From an uncultured Erysipelotrichaceae bacterium (GTDB lineage: Bacteria; Bacillota_I; Bacilli_A; Erysipelotrichales; Erysipelotrichaceae): a DNA stretch of 64,000 nt. The notes beneath the pieces are model-generated. The model was not told where the DNA came from. It made no database searches and saw only the letters and a list, made by a program, of their open reading frames with translations. The position numbers were made by a program, and so were the translations under genes. This document shows, piece after piece, positions 34,986 through 41,756 of this stretch; the stretch's first letter is position 1, and each line of letters begins with the position of its first letter. The DNA lies in NCBI GenBank assembly GCA_903789495.1, contig CAIFEQ010000001.1, forward strand, positions 122,559-186,558, written 5' to 3'.

Positions 34986-35164
34986 AGTATTTTTTTATTT
35001 TATCTATTTTCGATAAATTTATACAGCAAAAACGTCCTACCGTTACAGTCTGATTTTCCCTGTCTTGATCTTTCGACAGTGACCAAGTTATTGTTCTGCA
35101 CTTCAGAAGACAGATAGGAGCTGTTTCGAATGGACATTTCTGATTCAGGCCAATGGGCATAGTC

Positions 35165-36232
35165 CTAAATGCCAAAATGATCCTCTAAAATATGGTTCAA
35201 CTGTGCTGCGATAACGGAGAACTCCTGATTCAGATCCAGTGTCTTTACAGATATCTGATTCCCACTCATCTGATAAACATTATCCGGCACAAGATCCTCA
35301 TCTGTTTTTGCATATAAAAGCATTCCTGAAACATGATGTTCTGTGCCTTTCAATTGCTCCTGCTTGTTTTTTACGTATGTGAAAATCTGGTACATATTTC
35401 CAGAATGAACCGTCTGTACATCGAAGTTTGACTGCACGGTCCGCTGGTAATACTTTGCATCAATGATGAGTGTCTGATTTCCATAAGTTAGTGTAATGTC
35501 TGTCTGCATAACAGGAAGCAATGCATCATAGCCATTATCCAGCTGCCAGGGAATCTGCAGAGCTTTGGAAGAAAAACCTCTGACCCTTTGACCAAATTCC
35601 TGCGCGTAGTATTCCAGGATGAATTTCTCGTACAATCTGCTCATCCTCTGTTCATCCACAAAACTGGCAAGGCGATATTCTCCGCTCTCTGTCGTCATCA
35701 GCATTCCTTCAATCAATAACTGGCAGATGGCCAGCAGCAGCTGGTATGTGCGGTTATTTCGCTGAAAGCGGATATCAGCCCAGCGGATTTCCGACAGTTC
35801 TGTCACATCAACACCGGAAAAATAGAGCATCTCCTTCTTCAGCTCAGCCTTGTATTTCCTGTCGACATCGTTCTGACGCAAAAGCAGAAAAACTGTTGAT
35901 TTCAGGATCTGATTCAGAAGATTGTTCTCAGACAGCACATCGTAATCACAGGTCACCATCACCTGATGATTCAGTTTATTCCGGATTGTTCCCGGCATAT
36001 CGATTTTTCCGCGGACAACAGCAAGATCCTGGATCTGATTGGTGTACTCACGATAAAGTCCCTGCTTCAGCTGCAGTCCGATTCCCTTGGAAAGAATTGC
36101 CGCGAACAGATTATGAATATTATCAAAAGGTTCCGTCCGGATATCGTCATAGACTGATTCCTTCAGAACTGTGAAGGCATAGGAAAGCATATAGTAGATG
36201 TTTTTTATGAATATGCTTTTATCCTTTGTCAT
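35165..36232 (-). CDS. mcrC: McrC-like nuclease subunit of a type IV restriction system
   Basis: This 355-residue protein would cut DNA when assembled with McrB. The C-terminal PD-(D/E)xK nuclease core is visible: TDITL with Asp245, LIIDAKYY with Asp258 and Lys260, and a downstream Gln in YQIFTYV. The N-terminal part (MLSYAFTVL..., VRGKIDMPGTI...) is the usual McrC arm that contacts the McrB ring. The start overlaps the McrB stop (ATGA). Base composition here is clearly more AT-rich than in flanking genes, a sign of transfer. About 180 bp of AT-rich DNA follows to the next gene. Confidence 0.93.
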   Translation of the reverse strand: MTKDKSIFIKNIYYMLSYAFTVLKESVYDDIRTEPFDNIHNLFAAILSKGIGLQLKQGLYREYTNQIQDLAVVRGKIDMPGTIRNKLNHQVMVTCDYDVLSENNLLNQILKSTVFLLLRQNDVDRKYKAELKKEMLYFSGVDVTELSEIRWADIRFQRNNRTYQLLLAICQLLIEGMLMTTESGEYRLASFVDEQRMSRLYEKFILEYYAQEFGQRVRGFSSKALQIPWQLDNGYDALLPVMQTDITLTYGNQTLIIDAKYYQRTVQSNFDVQTVHSGNMYQIFTYVKNKQEQLKGTEHHVSGMLLYAKTDEDLVPDNVYQMSGNQISVKTLDLNQEFSVIAAQLNHILEDHFGI

Positions 36233-38634
36233 TGAAATATTCCGTGCAGGATGTTGTCCCAGCGCTGTACCTTGTCTCCGTCATCAAACCAGTATTCGGC
36301 AAGCATAGGCAGAATATCGTAATCGACGATGGACTGCATCCACTCATCCGTACAGCTTTCTTTTGTTCTGCCGCAGAAATAGCTGTGTCCAATGCAGAAA
36401 CCCTTTCCCAGTGATTTATCCCGCCTGATTTCATCATTCAGCTCAATGACCTTCTGTATCAGGTCATCAAATGTTTCGTTCGCAAGCATCTTCTGATAAG
36501 CAGTGAATCCTTCAGATTCAAATGCCGGATCCATCTCAAAGAAACTGAACCTGCGCCGCAATGCGTAATCGATCATGGCAAGGCTGCGGTCTGCTGTATT
36601 CATCATGCCGATGATGTACAGATTATCCGGAACAGAAAACGACATGTCCGTGTAGGCCAGTGTAGCCTTTGTGCCACGATAGTCTTTCTCAATCAGCATC
36701 AGCAGTTCACCGAAAATCTTGCTGAGATTGCCGCGGTTGATTTCATCAATGAGGAAGAAGTGCTTCTTGTCCGGCTGACTCTCTGCTTTCTTGCAGAAGG
36801 TGTAGAACACTCCGTTTTTCAGCTCGAAGGAATCCCCAGCGGGTTTATAGCCCATCATGAAATCTTCGTATGAATAGTTCTGGTGGAACTGAACGAATTC
36901 TATTCTGCTGTCATCTTTTTCTCCCATCAGAGAATAGGCAAGCCTTTTTGCGGCAAACGTCTTGCCGACGCCTGGTGCACCCTGCAGGATGATATTCATT
37001 TTGTTAAGCAGTACTCCTGCCAGCCTGTCATACTTTTCTTCTGACATGTAGACTTCAGACAGAAAATCTTTCTTCGTATAGGATGGAATCTCTCTCTCCG
37101 TGCTCAGCGGATTCTCCTCACGGATCATATCCATGATGAATTCATATTCTTCCTTTGTCAGTCTGAAGAGACTGCCGTTCGGATTCTGAAAGAACTCCAT
37201 TTCCGCCAGTTCCTGGCATTCCTTCAAAGTTACATAATCGATCGGATTGGCAAGGGACTCCGTTTTTTCAAAATAAATTCTCTGCCCGTCATTTGCTGTG
37301 CTGACTTTGGCAAGCGCAACAATCTGTTTGACAGGATTGGATTCGTAGCCAATAACAAGATCGCCTGTCTTGGCATCAAGAAAATTCTGGAATATGCGCC
37401 GCTTATTCCCGTTCCCGTTATACAGCGTGTAGTCCTGTACGTCACCGACCTGGAGATCGGAAAAACTCCATATCTTCGGATTGGCATTCAGCCACCAGTA
37501 ACCGGTTTTCTTATTATCTTCTTTGTTTGCATACAGATCAACATGACTCAGATCCACCTGACGCAAGGCATCGGAGAGTTCGCTGCGCAGTTTCCAGATC
37601 ATGCCGCTTTCTTCCTCTTTTGCGGCATTTTTGCAAACATAAAGCACAGCCAGCCATTCAGGATGATCAGAATCCTCTGCCATGACCGGACAGCCAGTCT
37701 TTTTCAAAACGCGCTTGGCCAGTTCTGTGGATTCCGAATGGTAAAAATCCTTCTTCTCACCATATTTCACTGCAAGCTGTGACCAGGCAGCAGATCCGCC
37801 ATAGTCCTGGATCCTTTTCATGACTGCAAGACTGCTCTGTGTAAAGACACTCTCATCTTCAAGAAGGCCAATCCACTCAGATGTTGTGATTCCCGGGTTG
37901 TATTCCTCAGGCGAGGGATGCCACTCACTGTCTTCGGAAGAAATACCTTTTTTCTTTAAAGGATTTCGATAGATATAGAAACCAATATCGAAAGTCAGTG
38001 TTTTCAGCTCCGGATCCGGATAACAGCTTTCTGTAAGCTGACTCCTGAACAGAGTCACAAGTTCCGTATCCTGTTTCAATACATTGCAGATCTCATTGTA
38101 AAATGCATAAAAATTCCGAAGATTTTCGGCATAAGCTCCTTTTTTGAAGCTGTAACTACTGCTCAGTCTTTCTGATACTGACCTTGCTTCAGTGTATTTG
38201 TAGATATAGTACTTGTCCGGATAGCGCAGCCAGAGATATGTGGTGATTACATTTTCATACTGATAATGCTGCCTGGCACCGTTACCATACTTTTCCAGAA
38301 GAATGGATGACTGCTTCTTAAAAGTATCTATTCTTTCATATACATCCTGGTTCTCATCGAACAGGTCGATATACATGGACCGCACTTCTTCAGGAGCAGT
38401 TTTGGCAAATCCAAGAATCATTCCTGCCGGGAAATTGTTAGCGGATGCCAGCAGATTATTGGTTTTAGCCAAAGAGCGGCTGAGCATATCAGCAAAATTC
38501 ACTGCATTGATATCCCAGTTATCCTGAAAACATTTAACTGCTTCCCATTTATATTTTTCGTTTGGCCAATGCTTTGATATAAACTCTTTTTTGTACTGGA
38601 CCAGTACCTCGTTTAAACAGGATTGATCAAACAT
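36229..38634 (-). CDS. mcrB: EVE-domain McrB-type AAA+ GTPase
   Basis: This 801-residue motor and DNA-sensing subunit has an alpha-helical N-terminal region (about 1-230) and a linker. An EVE/YTH-like domain (about 378-510) starts YWWLNANPKIWSF and contains the GDLVIGYESNP element; such domains bind modified cytosine or related bases. The AAA+ domain follows, with Walker A GAPGVGKT (552-559), Walker B FFLIDEINRG (about 626-635), the McrB-specific MNTADRS (678-684) and LRRRF. It differs from E. coli McrB, whose reader is not EVE. The start at 38634 follows GGAGG. With McrC it should restrict DNA carrying modified bases (family knowledge; specificity unknown). Confidence 0.92.
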   Translation of the reverse strand: MFDQSCLNEVLVQYKKEFISKHWPNEKYKWEAVKCFQDNWDINAVNFADMLSRSLAKTNNLLASANNFPAGMILGFAKTAPEEVRSMYIDLFDENQDVYERIDTFKKQSSILLEKYGNGARQHYQYENVITTYLWLRYPDKYYIYKYTEARSVSERLSSSYSFKKGAYAENLRNFYAFYNEICNVLKQDTELVTLFRSQLTESCYPDPELKTLTFDIGFYIYRNPLKKKGISSEDSEWHPSPEEYNPGITTSEWIGLLEDESVFTQSSLAVMKRIQDYGGSAAWSQLAVKYGEKKDFYHSESTELAKRVLKKTGCPVMAEDSDHPEWLAVLYVCKNAAKEEESGMIWKLRSELSDALRQVDLSHVDLYANKEDNKKTGYWWLNANPKIWSFSDLQVGDVQDYTLYNGNGNKRRIFQNFLDAKTGDLVIGYESNPVKQIVALAKVSTANDGQRIYFEKTESLANPIDYVTLKECQELAEMEFFQNPNGSLFRLTKEEYEFIMDMIREENPLSTEREIPSYTKKDFLSEVYMSEEKYDRLAGVLLNKMNIILQGAPGVGKTFAAKRLAYSLMGEKDDSRIEFVQFHQNYSYEDFMMGYKPAGDSFELKNGVFYTFCKKAESQPDKKHFFLIDEINRGNLSKIFGELLMLIEKDYRGTKATLAYTDMSFSVPDNLYIIGMMNTADRSLAMIDYALRRRFSFFEMDPAFESEGFTAYQKMLANETFDDLIQKVIELNDEIRRDKSLGKGFCIGHSYFCGRTKESCTDEWMQSIVDYDILPMLAEYWFDDGDKVQRWDNILHGIFQ

Positions 38635-38879
38635 TCATGCATCCTCCATGGAGCCTTGCAAATTCTTGTATATCAAGCAAGACAAATTACACTGTAGAAT
38701 ACCAGCGATTCTTCATTTTTTTCATACGAAATGGTTTTGATGACATGGCAGGTGTATGTTTCTTCTATATATGTTATTACCTTTAATCAATTCGGATTGG
38801 AACCTGTGTGCCCATTTTAAACGGCAAGGTCATTTACATGATACGTATTTCCGCATCCTAAAGTGAATCACGGAAGGCA

Positions 38880-39200
38880 TCAGAGCTGATCGTATTTATC
38901 CGCCCTGCCTTTGGCTTTCTCTGCAGGGTATTTCTTCTCATTCTGCTCCATCTTCATATTGACAATATCGTCCGCATCCAGATCCAGCTTATCCAGCATG
39001 TTCTGGCAGTAGATCATGACATCTGCCAGTTCTTCCTTCACATGCTGAAGATCATAATGCTCATCTGACCACTGAAAGCATTCCAGCAGTTCGGATGCTT
39101 CGATGACAATGGACTTGGCTAAATTGGACGGTGAATGGAACTGATCCCAGTCTCTGTCCTCACTGAACTTCCTGATTCGTTCAATCGTCTCCGGTTTCAT
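38880..39200 (-). CDS. MazG-like nucleotide pyrophosphohydrolase
   Basis: This 106-residue all-alpha NTP pyrophosphohydrolase has the metal-binding signature IVIEASELLE (Glu34, Glu37) followed by VKEELADVMIYC (Glu57, Asp60). It is the short, single-domain type related to RS21-C6 dCTPase-like enzymes, which hydrolyse (d)NTPs to monophosphates. The ATG shares one base with the helicase stop (TAATG), so the two are translationally coupled. Beside McrBC and a nuclease-helicase, a role in depleting or cleaning nucleotides during phage attack is possible (inference). Housekeeping sanitation is the alternative. Confidence 0.85.
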   Translation of the reverse strand: MKPETIERIRKFSEDRDWDQFHSPSNLAKSIVIEASELLECFQWSDEHYDLQHVKEELADVMIYCQNMLDKLDLDADDIVNMKMEQNEKKYPAEKAKGRADKYDQL

Positions 39201-40894
39201 TATGGTTTCCTTTCCACATACTGACTGATATAGGCTCTCAGATTGTCATCACAGACATAGAGATAGGTCCCTCTGATGCCCCTGGTCAGCAGAACATAGT
39301 AGACATGCCTGATGTATTCGCAGAGATCTTCATCATCCGCTGATCTCTTGCCGTTCTGATCAAAGTACTGATCCCGGCGGAAGATGATCTTACCATCTTC
39401 CATGCCGATATCTTTTCCCAGGATCACAAAAGCATAGTTCAGATCAAAGCCCTGAATGGAATGAATGCAGCCGACCTCATCAATGGCTTCGGGCTTATTG
39501 ACCCAGCCCTGCGTGCAGTGATTCCACATTCTCTGTATGCCCTGAATCTCAATATCCTTCGTCTTATGATCCTGCTTGCTTTTCCATTCCCAGGCATAGC
39601 CGGCGACCATGCGGGACAGGCCGTATTCCTTTTCCTTCTCATACATATCCCGTTCAAATGCTGAGAAATCATCATAGAGTCCAAGTTCATAGGCATCGGA
39701 ATGATAGGGTTCCGTGCACTCGCCATGCAGCAGTTTCCTGACGAAGTCCAGGTAGCCATTGCCGCCCCGCACCCGCATTTCGGTCAGCAGTTCATAATAC
39801 CTGCAGAGACGATGCTGTTCCTTTTCCGCTCTTTGAATCTTGTCCCGGAAGCGCTGGTAGTCGATACCTGAAGGACCGACTACCTGATCGCGGTCATAGA
39901 ACAGAATGGCGGTCTCAGACTGTTTCAGAATCCAGTCCAGTTCATCTGCTTCAGTCGTCATGCCCAGCTTCTCACAGTTCTTCTTGAAGGCACCCATGTA
40001 GGAAATGTTCTTATACTGGTGCAGGCGATGGGCTTCGTCCACAATCAGAATGTCATACTTTTCCCGGACGACGTCTGACGGAGAAAGCACCTGGGACGGT
40101 TTCAGGCCATAGATCGTCTTGAAGATGGACTTCATGGTTTCCCGAAGAGAAGTCTGCGGGACCACAAAACCGATCTTCTTCCCCTGGAACTGTTCATCAT
40201 CTGCCAGGTATTTCATCAGATAGACTGCGACTATGGTCTTGCCGGTACCAGGCATGCCATTGACTACGACGATCTGGGCTTCCCTGTTCTCAATAACCTC
40301 CAGGATGTCATCGACTGCCTGCCGCTGATTGTCATTAAGTTCTTTATAGGGAGAATATTTGAACAGATCTGAGTTTTCGATCTCTTCCAGTGAATGTGTA
40401 ACCAGCTTTTCTTTCTGCAGCTTGCGCCACAGTCTGACAAAGTCCTGATCGTATTCCTGTTTCTGATAGTACTGCTTATCCGCGATGCCGGCATTCTTGT
40501 TTGTCACCTCAAAGAGCTGATCCGCCGCAATATACTGGATCAGCTTGGATTCATAATCAAAGGTAACCGACTGGTTGAACATCTTCGAATAGATGAAATG
40601 CACGGTATCGAAGATCTTCTTTTCTTCCACCGTCGCATGCTGAGACATCCTGGTCTTTGCATGACTGGATTCCCCGATATAGGCTTTCCTGCCGTTTTCC
40701 AGAATATAAAGCATGGGCCAGTTATCGAGATAGGCCTCGTCGGGATAGTCCTCATTTTTAAAGTTACAGGAAATGACCTTAAATCTTTCAGTGCCCATTA
40801 CACTACCATGATATCCTAACTGTCCCCTTCTGGTATCGGCACAAATACACGGATTTCCGCTCTGTCTGATCTCAGACAGCTTGAAAACTGCCAT
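39200..40894 (-). CDS. GIY-YIG nuclease fused to DUF2075 superfamily-1 helicase
   Basis: This 564-residue predicted nuclease-helicase has a GIY-YIG fold in residues about 58-120 (PMLYILENGRKAYIGES, Arg82 in AKTRMSQH, Glu115 in DYESKLIQY). A DUF2075 P-loop domain follows, with Walker A GMPGTGKT (213-220), Walker B ILIVDEAHR (282-290) and C-terminal helicase motifs (CIHSIQGFDLNYAFVILG, YVLLTRGIRGTYLY). I start at 40894 (MAVFKLSEIRQ) behind AGGAG; the longer in-frame start would overlap the divergent promoter. It is coupled to the MazG-like gene by TAATG and lies next to McrBC, suggesting a two-gene defence module. Its exact function is undescribed to my knowledge. Confidence 0.88.
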   Translation of the reverse strand: MAVFKLSEIRQSGNPCICADTRRGQLGYHGSVMGTERFKVISCNFKNEDYPDEAYLDNWPMLYILENGRKAYIGESSHAKTRMSQHATVEEKKIFDTVHFIYSKMFNQSVTFDYESKLIQYIAADQLFEVTNKNAGIADKQYYQKQEYDQDFVRLWRKLQKEKLVTHSLEEIENSDLFKYSPYKELNDNQRQAVDDILEVIENREAQIVVVNGMPGTGKTIVAVYLMKYLADDEQFQGKKIGFVVPQTSLRETMKSIFKTIYGLKPSQVLSPSDVVREKYDILIVDEAHRLHQYKNISYMGAFKKNCEKLGMTTEADELDWILKQSETAILFYDRDQVVGPSGIDYQRFRDKIQRAEKEQHRLCRYYELLTEMRVRGGNGYLDFVRKLLHGECTEPYHSDAYELGLYDDFSAFERDMYEKEKEYGLSRMVAGYAWEWKSKQDHKTKDIEIQGIQRMWNHCTQGWVNKPEAIDEVGCIHSIQGFDLNYAFVILGKDIGMEDGKIIFRRDQYFDQNGKRSADDEDLCEYIRHVYYVLLTRGIRGTYLYVCDDNLRAYISQYVERKP

Positions 40895-41033
40895 TTTTTC
40901 TCCTAGTATATGGTCTGACTGGTAATGTATTCCGCCGCCGGGTGGATCAGAGGAGGGATTCCTGCGCATCGTAAGGCCATAGAAGATGCGGCAGGTATTC
41001 CTCATTTTCTTACCAGATACCAGGGAGGAAGCC

Positions 41034-41756
41034 ATGCAGAAATTCATTACCGACGATGCCTTCTGGGAGCTGTTCCCGGATGCTGCGATTGCCATCCTGT
41101 CTCTGTCCGATGTCCGGGAAGCAGCTCAGCTGGATGCGGAAAAGGAAGAGGAAATCAGAACCCTGCTGCAGGAAGCCAACGAAACTGCCAAGAAGTATGT
41201 CCCGAATGACCCGATCAGTGAAAACACCGTCCCCAAACTGTGGCGTCAGGCCTACCAGAAATTTCCGACCAAGAAAGGCGCAAGATGTTCCATCGAAGCC
41301 CTGCTGAAGCGGGTTCTGCATGGTACGCCTGTCGGATCCATTCTGCCTTCTGTGGATATTACCAACTCCATTTCCCTGAGGTATGCCTTCCCGATCGGGG
41401 CTGAAAATCTCGATGCCATTGTCGGGGATCTGCATCTCGGGCTCATGAAGGGAGATGAAGATTTCCTGCCGATCGGTTCCGAGAAACCCGAACCGCCGCT
41501 GCCGGGCGAACTGGCCTACTACGATGAGAAGGGTGTGGTCTGCCGCTGCTGGAACTGGCGTGACGGACAGCGTACGGAGATCAACGAAAAGACCACCAAT
41601 GAATTCATCGCCATGGAATGCATTGAACCGGAACGGATTCAGGAACTGCAGGCAGCTCTGGATGAACTGGCCGGCCTCATGCAGAAATACCTGAGTGCGG
41701 AGGTAAAGGCCAAGACCATCCTTACTGCACAGAATCGGGAAACCGTCCTGCGCTGA
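41034..41756 (+). CDS. B3/B4 domain protein (tRNA-editing-like)
   Basis: This 240-residue protein consists of a single B3/B4 domain, the fold that edits mischarged tRNA in the phenylalanyl-tRNA synthetase beta subunit. Recognisable blocks are IPNDPIS-type YVPNDPISENTVPKLWRQAYQKF, SILPSVDITNSISLRYAFPIGAEN and GELAYYDEKGVVCRCWNWRDGQRT. Stand-alone versions may clear misacylated tRNA in trans, but this is unproven. I start at 41034 (MQKFITDDAFW) because CCAGGGAGGAAG precedes it. It is divergent from the nuclease-helicase and has its own terminator. Confidence 0.85.
   Translation: MQKFITDDAFWELFPDAAIAILSLSDVREAAQLDAEKEEEIRTLLQEANETAKKYVPNDPISENTVPKLWRQAYQKFPTKKGARCSIEALLKRVLHGTPVGSILPSVDITNSISLRYAFPIGAENLDAIVGDLHLGLMKGDEDFLPIGSEKPEPPLPGELAYYDEKGVVCRCWNWRDGQRTEINEKTTNEFIAMECIEPERIQELQAALDELAGLMQKYLSAEVKAKTILTAQNRETVLR

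Follow-up and report, generated by a model that had tools for sequence, protein, structure and literature searches.

The gene mcrB lies at 36229-38634 on the minus strand of the window, a stretch of 64,000 nucleotides from an uncultured Erysipelotrichaceae bacterium (assembly GCA_903789495.1, contig CAIFEQ010000001.1, positions 122,559 to 186,558). From its sequence, it is predicted to be the motor of an McrBC-type anti-phage restriction system that would cleave modified DNA in a GTP-dependent manner. It is a single intact frame of 801 amino acids with an ATG start, and its architecture is N1-N2-EVE-GTPase; the first ~375 residues form the two modules N1 (1-226) and N2 (232-373). Directly established here are which domains the protein has, that the motor and nuclease motifs are intact, that N-terminal cassettes are exchanged among relatives and that N1 is under purifying selection. 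Taken as a whole, the locus is read with fair confidence as an McrBC restriction system in which EVE would be the reader, N2 an accessory module and N1 the core.

The features of the system are as follows.

36229..38634, minus strand: mcrB, intact open reading frame with an ATG start; its motor scores 307.7 bits against PRK11331 McrB
37957..38634, minus strand: N1, residues 1-226, all-helical by AlphaFold2, of no named family
37516..37941, minus strand: N2, residues 232-373, winged-helix-like by AlphaFold2 and PDB fold matches
37126..37500, minus strand: EVE domain, residues 379-503, Pfam PF01878
36232..37086, minus strand: McrB AAA+ GTPase, residues 517-801, matching E. coli McrB structures 6hz4/6ut6 (E~1e-90)
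36958-36981, minus strand: Walker A, GAPGVGKT, residues 552-559, located as a motif
36727-36759, minus strand: Walker B/DEINRGN, located as a motif
36583-36603, minus strand: MNTADRS, residues 678-684, NxxD signature, located as a motif
35165..36232, minus strand: mcrC, 355 amino acids, nuclease partner of the DUF2357-PD-(D/E)xK type, by PRK09736 and motif

The motor and its McrC partner

The coordinates given for the gene in the initial annotation are right, and the frame on the minus strand is intact. In the motor, residues 515-798 align with solved E. coli McrB (6hz4/6ut6, E~1e-90), and Pfam AAA_5 is matched at residues 547-696. The PRK11331 score of 307.7 bits stays under the model's full-length cut-off because the N-terminus of this mcrB differs. 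The partner gene, mcrC, is also intact; its start and the mcrB stop overlap by 4 bases. It scores 382.7 bits against the NCBIfam McrC model PRK09736 (cut-off 338) and carries the nuclease motif TDITL...IIDAKYY (TD...DAK). A GTPase of the McrB branch with Walker A, Walker B and NxxD, and an McrC in the same operon, place the pair among the McrBC type IV systems. The protein does not fall in the CoCoNuT subclass, as its NTAD motif is NxxD and not NxD; no coiled-coil-rich module was noticed in mcrB, without a coiled-coil predictor having been run.

The EVE domain

An EVE-like domain had been proposed at about residues 378-510, directly before the GTPase with MNTADRS, and this is borne out by Pfam EVE (PF01878) at residues 379-503 (E=1.8e-9, 38.2 bits, cut-off 23). 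The match starts exactly at YWWLNANPKIWSF and is directly N-terminal to the GTPase; when the domain is queried alone, the E-value is 1.3e-11. A profile built from 11 relatives also finds 2gbs, an EVE protein of solved structure (E=1e-5). The protein is, therefore, an EVE-McrB fusion, with PF01878 joined to an McrB GTPase. Such a domain upstream of McrB is not unusual: in the passages covered of the paper on these fusions, no EVE fusion of defence systems is commoner than EVE-McrB, which occurs in nearly 300 genera (PMC7641849). The EVE domains of VcaM4I are known to flip 5-methylcytosine (5mC) and 5-hydroxymethylcytosine (5hmC) into a pocket (PMC7897488), and by this analogy, the EVE domain of the window protein probably recognises chemically modified DNA.

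The N-terminal modules N1 and N2

The ~370 residues ahead of EVE had been described as a helical N-terminus that is not the E. coli McrB reader. That reader is indeed missing: MrcB_N/DUF3578 (PF12102), a model included in the Pfam library searched, has no match in mcrB, and as a positive control the same library detects it in the relative L035 (E=1.9e-58). The word helical suits N1 and not the whole, as the region is not a single one and its second part is winged-helix-like. Both modules were modelled with AlphaFold2 from alignments of relatives, N1 as residues 1-229 and N2 as 228-376. Structure prediction and comparison with known DNA readers had been suggested for this region; the comparison with PDB folds gave mostly winged-helix matches for N2 and no significant match for N1.

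N1 is modelled as a compact, all-helical domain of 11 helices (predicted local distance difference test, pLDDT, 94.1; predicted template modelling score, pTM, 0.91). Its invariant core includes W30, W40, P69, Y133, W135, P139, D140, Y143, D207 and D216. It has no Pfam match, no PDB sequence match and no significant PDB fold match, and the best hit in a viral structure library, an unnamed phage protein (probability 0.44, E 1.1), was of no use. Two other helical McrB N-termini, 'B' (L016/L019/L022) and 'C' (L014/L017/L018), were considered as relatives of N1, and may at most be remote ones: hhalign aligns 'C' with N1 at the same motif, at a probability of 2-3% only.

N2 likewise has no Pfam match. 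Its model runs H-H-E-H-H-E-E-H (pLDDT 85.8), and almost all of the 50 PDB fold matches listed for it are winged-helix proteins (MarR, ArsR, TFE; probability 0.54-0.98, E 0.03-0.13). On this modelling, N2 is winged-helix-like, its kinship with any one family not being proven.

Exchange of cassettes among relatives

Relatives were gathered with N1 as the query, from a species-representative collection, in which at least 250 contigs were found (80 of 250 kept), and from viral contigs. They occur in Bacillota, Spirochaetota, Synergistota, Actinomycetota and others. Remote N1 searches of the viral contigs with single divergent sequences gave one or no new locus. Architectures were compared in 81 intact proteins that combine N1 with a single complete motor; some of these are one record present in both collections. 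The layout of the window protein, N1-N2-EVE-motor, is found in 55 of the 81. The others are N1-N2-motor (7/81), N1-N2-X-EVE-motor (6/81), N1-motor (4/81; L060, L090, L094, L106), N1-EVE-motor (3/81), N1-Y-EVE-motor and N1-MrrN-motor (2/81 each), and N1-N2-X-motor and N1-N2-N2-motor (1/81 each).

X and Y are unnamed domains of ~150 amino acids that occupy the reader position, and they look reader-like only by this position and by the look of their sequences. They were considered as EVE relatives and set aside, as neither has a Pfam match and Y has no significant match to a solved structure. In L109 and L110, the N2 slot is filled by the Pfam Mrr_N winged helix (E=3.7e-9 in a relative).

Thus, N2, EVE and X are gained and lost as cassettes among N1-bearing McrB proteins, while N1 and the motor stay. 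On the motor tree, the architecture changes at least 25 times and the presence of EVE 15 times; with 49 of its 79 inner branches left open, the tree is of low resolution, and these counts are rough. The tree is not needed for the pair L116/L117, in which N1 is 96% and the motor 97.5% identical and L117 is wholly without EVE. As close relatives are so cleanly without it, 'inserted' was a fair word for the EVE domain.

Other combinations were also observed. In L035 (220-2796), N2 and an MrcB_N reader (1.9e-58) stand together in one McrB, and N2 is therefore not tied to N1. The order is swapped in L138 (6476-9049), where N2 precedes N1 and the motor is of a different McrB class, with a domain inserted inside the GTPase. 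N1-like domains (E~1e-23) also occur in stand-alone, non-McrB proteins of 367-380 amino acids, together with a small, SH3-like-looking C-terminal domain (L045:6811-7953, L174:4926-6029). An N1-N2-X-EVE-McrB gene is also found in a phage, NatCom_35866 (PV036449; L173:5965-9919), where a second gene overlaps it at the place of mcrC; both are labelled hypothetical, unlike the DNA methyltransferase gene that the phage has there as well.

Is N1 a reader?

The four N1-motor relatives are laid out like E. coli McrB, N1 taking the place of the reader. In one of these, L060, mcrB and mcrC are flanked by unrelated genes, so that a reader encoded nearby is unlikely. N1 of L060 is constrained like the motor, with non-synonymous (dN) and synonymous (dS) divergence of 0.070 and 1.21 as against 0.066 and 1.51. 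N1 is, thus, under purifying selection. As N1 and the motor are retained in relatives that have lost N2, EVE or both, N1 is called the core module, and a part in recognition is suggested by this pattern.

The initial annotation had offered that the N-terminus could be a second reader or an effector-sensing domain; no support was found for the latter. The former is plausible for both modules: for N1, the sole module ahead of the motor in four relatives, and for N2, with its winged helix and the Mrr_N domain found in its slot. Recognition of DNA or of a base would in either case be an inference. A stronger proposal, held only tentatively, is that N1 is a new all-helical reader of DNA modification, unrelated to PUA, MrcB_N and winged-helix domains, which alone could programme the McrBC motor, EVE and the winged helix being optional additions by which its specificity is broadened or sharpened.

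It is also conceivable, though again no more than tentatively, that N1 is an assembly or partner domain, stabilising the hexamer or docking with, for example, a type I restriction-modification (R-M) complex, and that only EVE and N2 contact DNA. The conservation of N1 is near that of the motor and above that of N2, unlike a fast-evolving reader, and N1 has no match to a DNA-binding fold. HsdR is also encoded nearby in 32 of 94 related loci, where the hsdR gene often ends ~12 bases ahead of mcrB. However, hsdR is absent from the examined stretch of most loci, and N1-like domains are found in the small non-McrB proteins of L045 and L174 as well. A pure partner role also leaves the four N1-motor proteins with no other candidate reader, and the neighbourhood of L060 has none either.

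A third view, regarded as improbable, is that N1 is distantly related to the HhH-GPD DNA glycosylases, is altered in catalysis and reads DNA by base flipping. These enzymes make up 9 of the 50 best PDB fold matches of N1 (all non-significant), including ranks 1 and 3, and have the highest probabilities (up to 0.12). By eye, ITTYLWLRYPDKYYIYK resembles the stretch of MutY around the catalytic Asp, with K146 in place of the Asp. Nevertheless, all fold matches of N1 have E>1 and template modelling scores (TM-scores) of at most 0.33, and hhalign, set to compare the N1 profile with alignments of MutY and Nth, gave a probability below 2%. The OGG-like Pfam family PF21790 yielded no intermediate in the genomes searched, which says little, as the control set was also without it. 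With neither profile nor fold similarity reaching significance, N1 was not assigned to the HhH-GPD glycosylases.

Proposed mechanism

In the mechanism favoured here, McrB hexamers would engage foreign DNA via the stacked modules N1-N2-EVE. EVE (379-503) would act as an exchangeable base reader, flipping and testing, by analogy with VcaM4I, a base that is most likely a modified cytosine. The winged helix of N2 may contribute accessory DNA binding or act as a second reader, and the helical N1 may be the core recognition module. As in E. coli McrBC, GTP hydrolysis would drive translocation and, with McrC, the DNA would be cut.

Several points weigh against this reading. Binding, cleavage and phage restriction by the window McrBC are all predictions, and the ligand of its EVE domain is not deducible from sequence. 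The fold matches of N2 are individually weak (best E 0.03). N1 is without any significant match in sequence or fold (Pfam, PDB, viral structure library), so that its role at DNA is argued from architecture alone. Its constancy is, moreover, partly a matter of selection, N1 having been the search query, and L043 keeps N2-EVE-motor without it; N1 is, thus, not indispensable. In L043 (814-3692), a separate gene upstream encodes 324 amino acids, with a different helical domain of the kind seen at McrB N-termini and a C-terminal end that is similar, and the front module may there act in trans.

The second copy and the genomic surroundings

A second complete N1-N2-EVE-McrBC is present in the same genome (L005:3961-16259) and is 81% identical to the window copy. 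It begins 14 bases after hsdR, in the type I R-M order hsdM-hsdS-hsdR-mcrB-mcrC; immediately upstream of hsdM is a gene for an AAA ATPase of 787 amino acids that resembles RloC by eye. McrBC of the E. coli branch is known to be associated with type I R-M (PMC11090510), and the hsd linkage of the second copy, like the HsdR neighbours of the related loci, fits this association.

The presence of this copy raises the question of whether the window copy is a decaying, redundant duplicate that no longer restricts DNA. The window copy has no hsd genes nearby, and its N2 is the most diverged part: identity between the copies is 65% in N2, as against 81% in N1, 87% in EVE, 90% in the motor and 86% in mcrC. 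N2 of the window copy has also lost residues that are 98-100% conserved (C284W, W328L, G334C, G343S). Such decay is nonetheless judged quite unlikely. The window copy has no stop or frameshift, its motor and nuclease motifs are intact, and mcrC is complete in both copies. Non-synonymous change is far under synonymous change in every domain, and in the motor tree each copy falls inside a group of intact relatives. Synonymous sites between the copies are near saturation; therefore, they are not recent duplicates, and separate acquisition is likely. Across the family, mcrC adjoins N1-McrB in 85 of the 94 related loci.

The stretch 35000-41000 of the window is low in G+C (40-49%) compared with its flanks (50-59%) and looks like an acquired defence island, holding mcrC, mcrB, a MazG-like gene and a GIY-YIG/SLFN-g3 helicase gene. 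The MazG-like pyrophosphohydrolase gene and, beside it, the GIY-YIG and SLFN-g3 helicase gene (helicase part, Pfam 2e-63) lie at 38880-41095 on the minus strand, where the listed start of the long open reading frame is probably too early. They are possibly a separate defence pair. As parts of the McrBC system they were rejected, being present in none of the 94 related loci.

Comparison with known systems

E. coli K-12 McrBC has a GTPase of the same branch (E~1e-90), an McrC of the same family and the same association with type I R-M; its reader is MrcB_N/DUF3578, absent from the window mcrB. The EVE-McrB fusions of Bell, Wolf & Koonin 2020 (PMC7641849) have the same EVE-McrB GTPase and McrC; in the passages covered of that paper, they are abundant in Firmicutes and often carry extra domains, and the helical N1 and its reader-less forms are undescribed. 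Fusions of the form NTD-wH-NTPase/McrC, with an N-terminal domain (NTD) of unknown function and a winged helix (wH), were listed in 2024 but not studied, and one purification attempt failed (Front Microbiol 2024, PMC11037411). They resemble the N1-N2-motor relatives, NTD and wH being matched to N1 and N2 by description only; EVE is unmentioned there, whereas the window protein has it between N2 and the motor.

An EVE or other PUA reader likewise serves modification-dependent restriction in VcaM4I (EVE-HNH) and HHPV4I (PUA/SRA-wH-HNH), and HHPV4I has a winged helix beside its PUA reader, as EVE is accompanied by N2 in the window protein. Those enzymes, however, have their nuclease, an HNH domain, on one polypeptide with the reader, where the window system has an McrB motor and McrC. 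According to a census of McrBC (PMC11090510), a classification of the specificity domains was intended and a paper on the E. coli branch was still to come; neither was found in a literature search that had most subscription journals outside its scope.

EVE-McrB and NTD-winged-helix-McrB fusions are, thus, already published, and it is N1, a domain without a name, and its reader-less forms that are worth a second look. If N1 is a reader, a widespread recognition module, present on at least 250 contigs, has gone unnamed in the domain libraries searched. The natural N1-only, N1-N2 and N1-N2-EVE proteins, on a near-identical motor, would permit the share of each reader to be measured. Comparing these natural forms would be a practical route to what many non-E. 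coli McrBC systems recognise.
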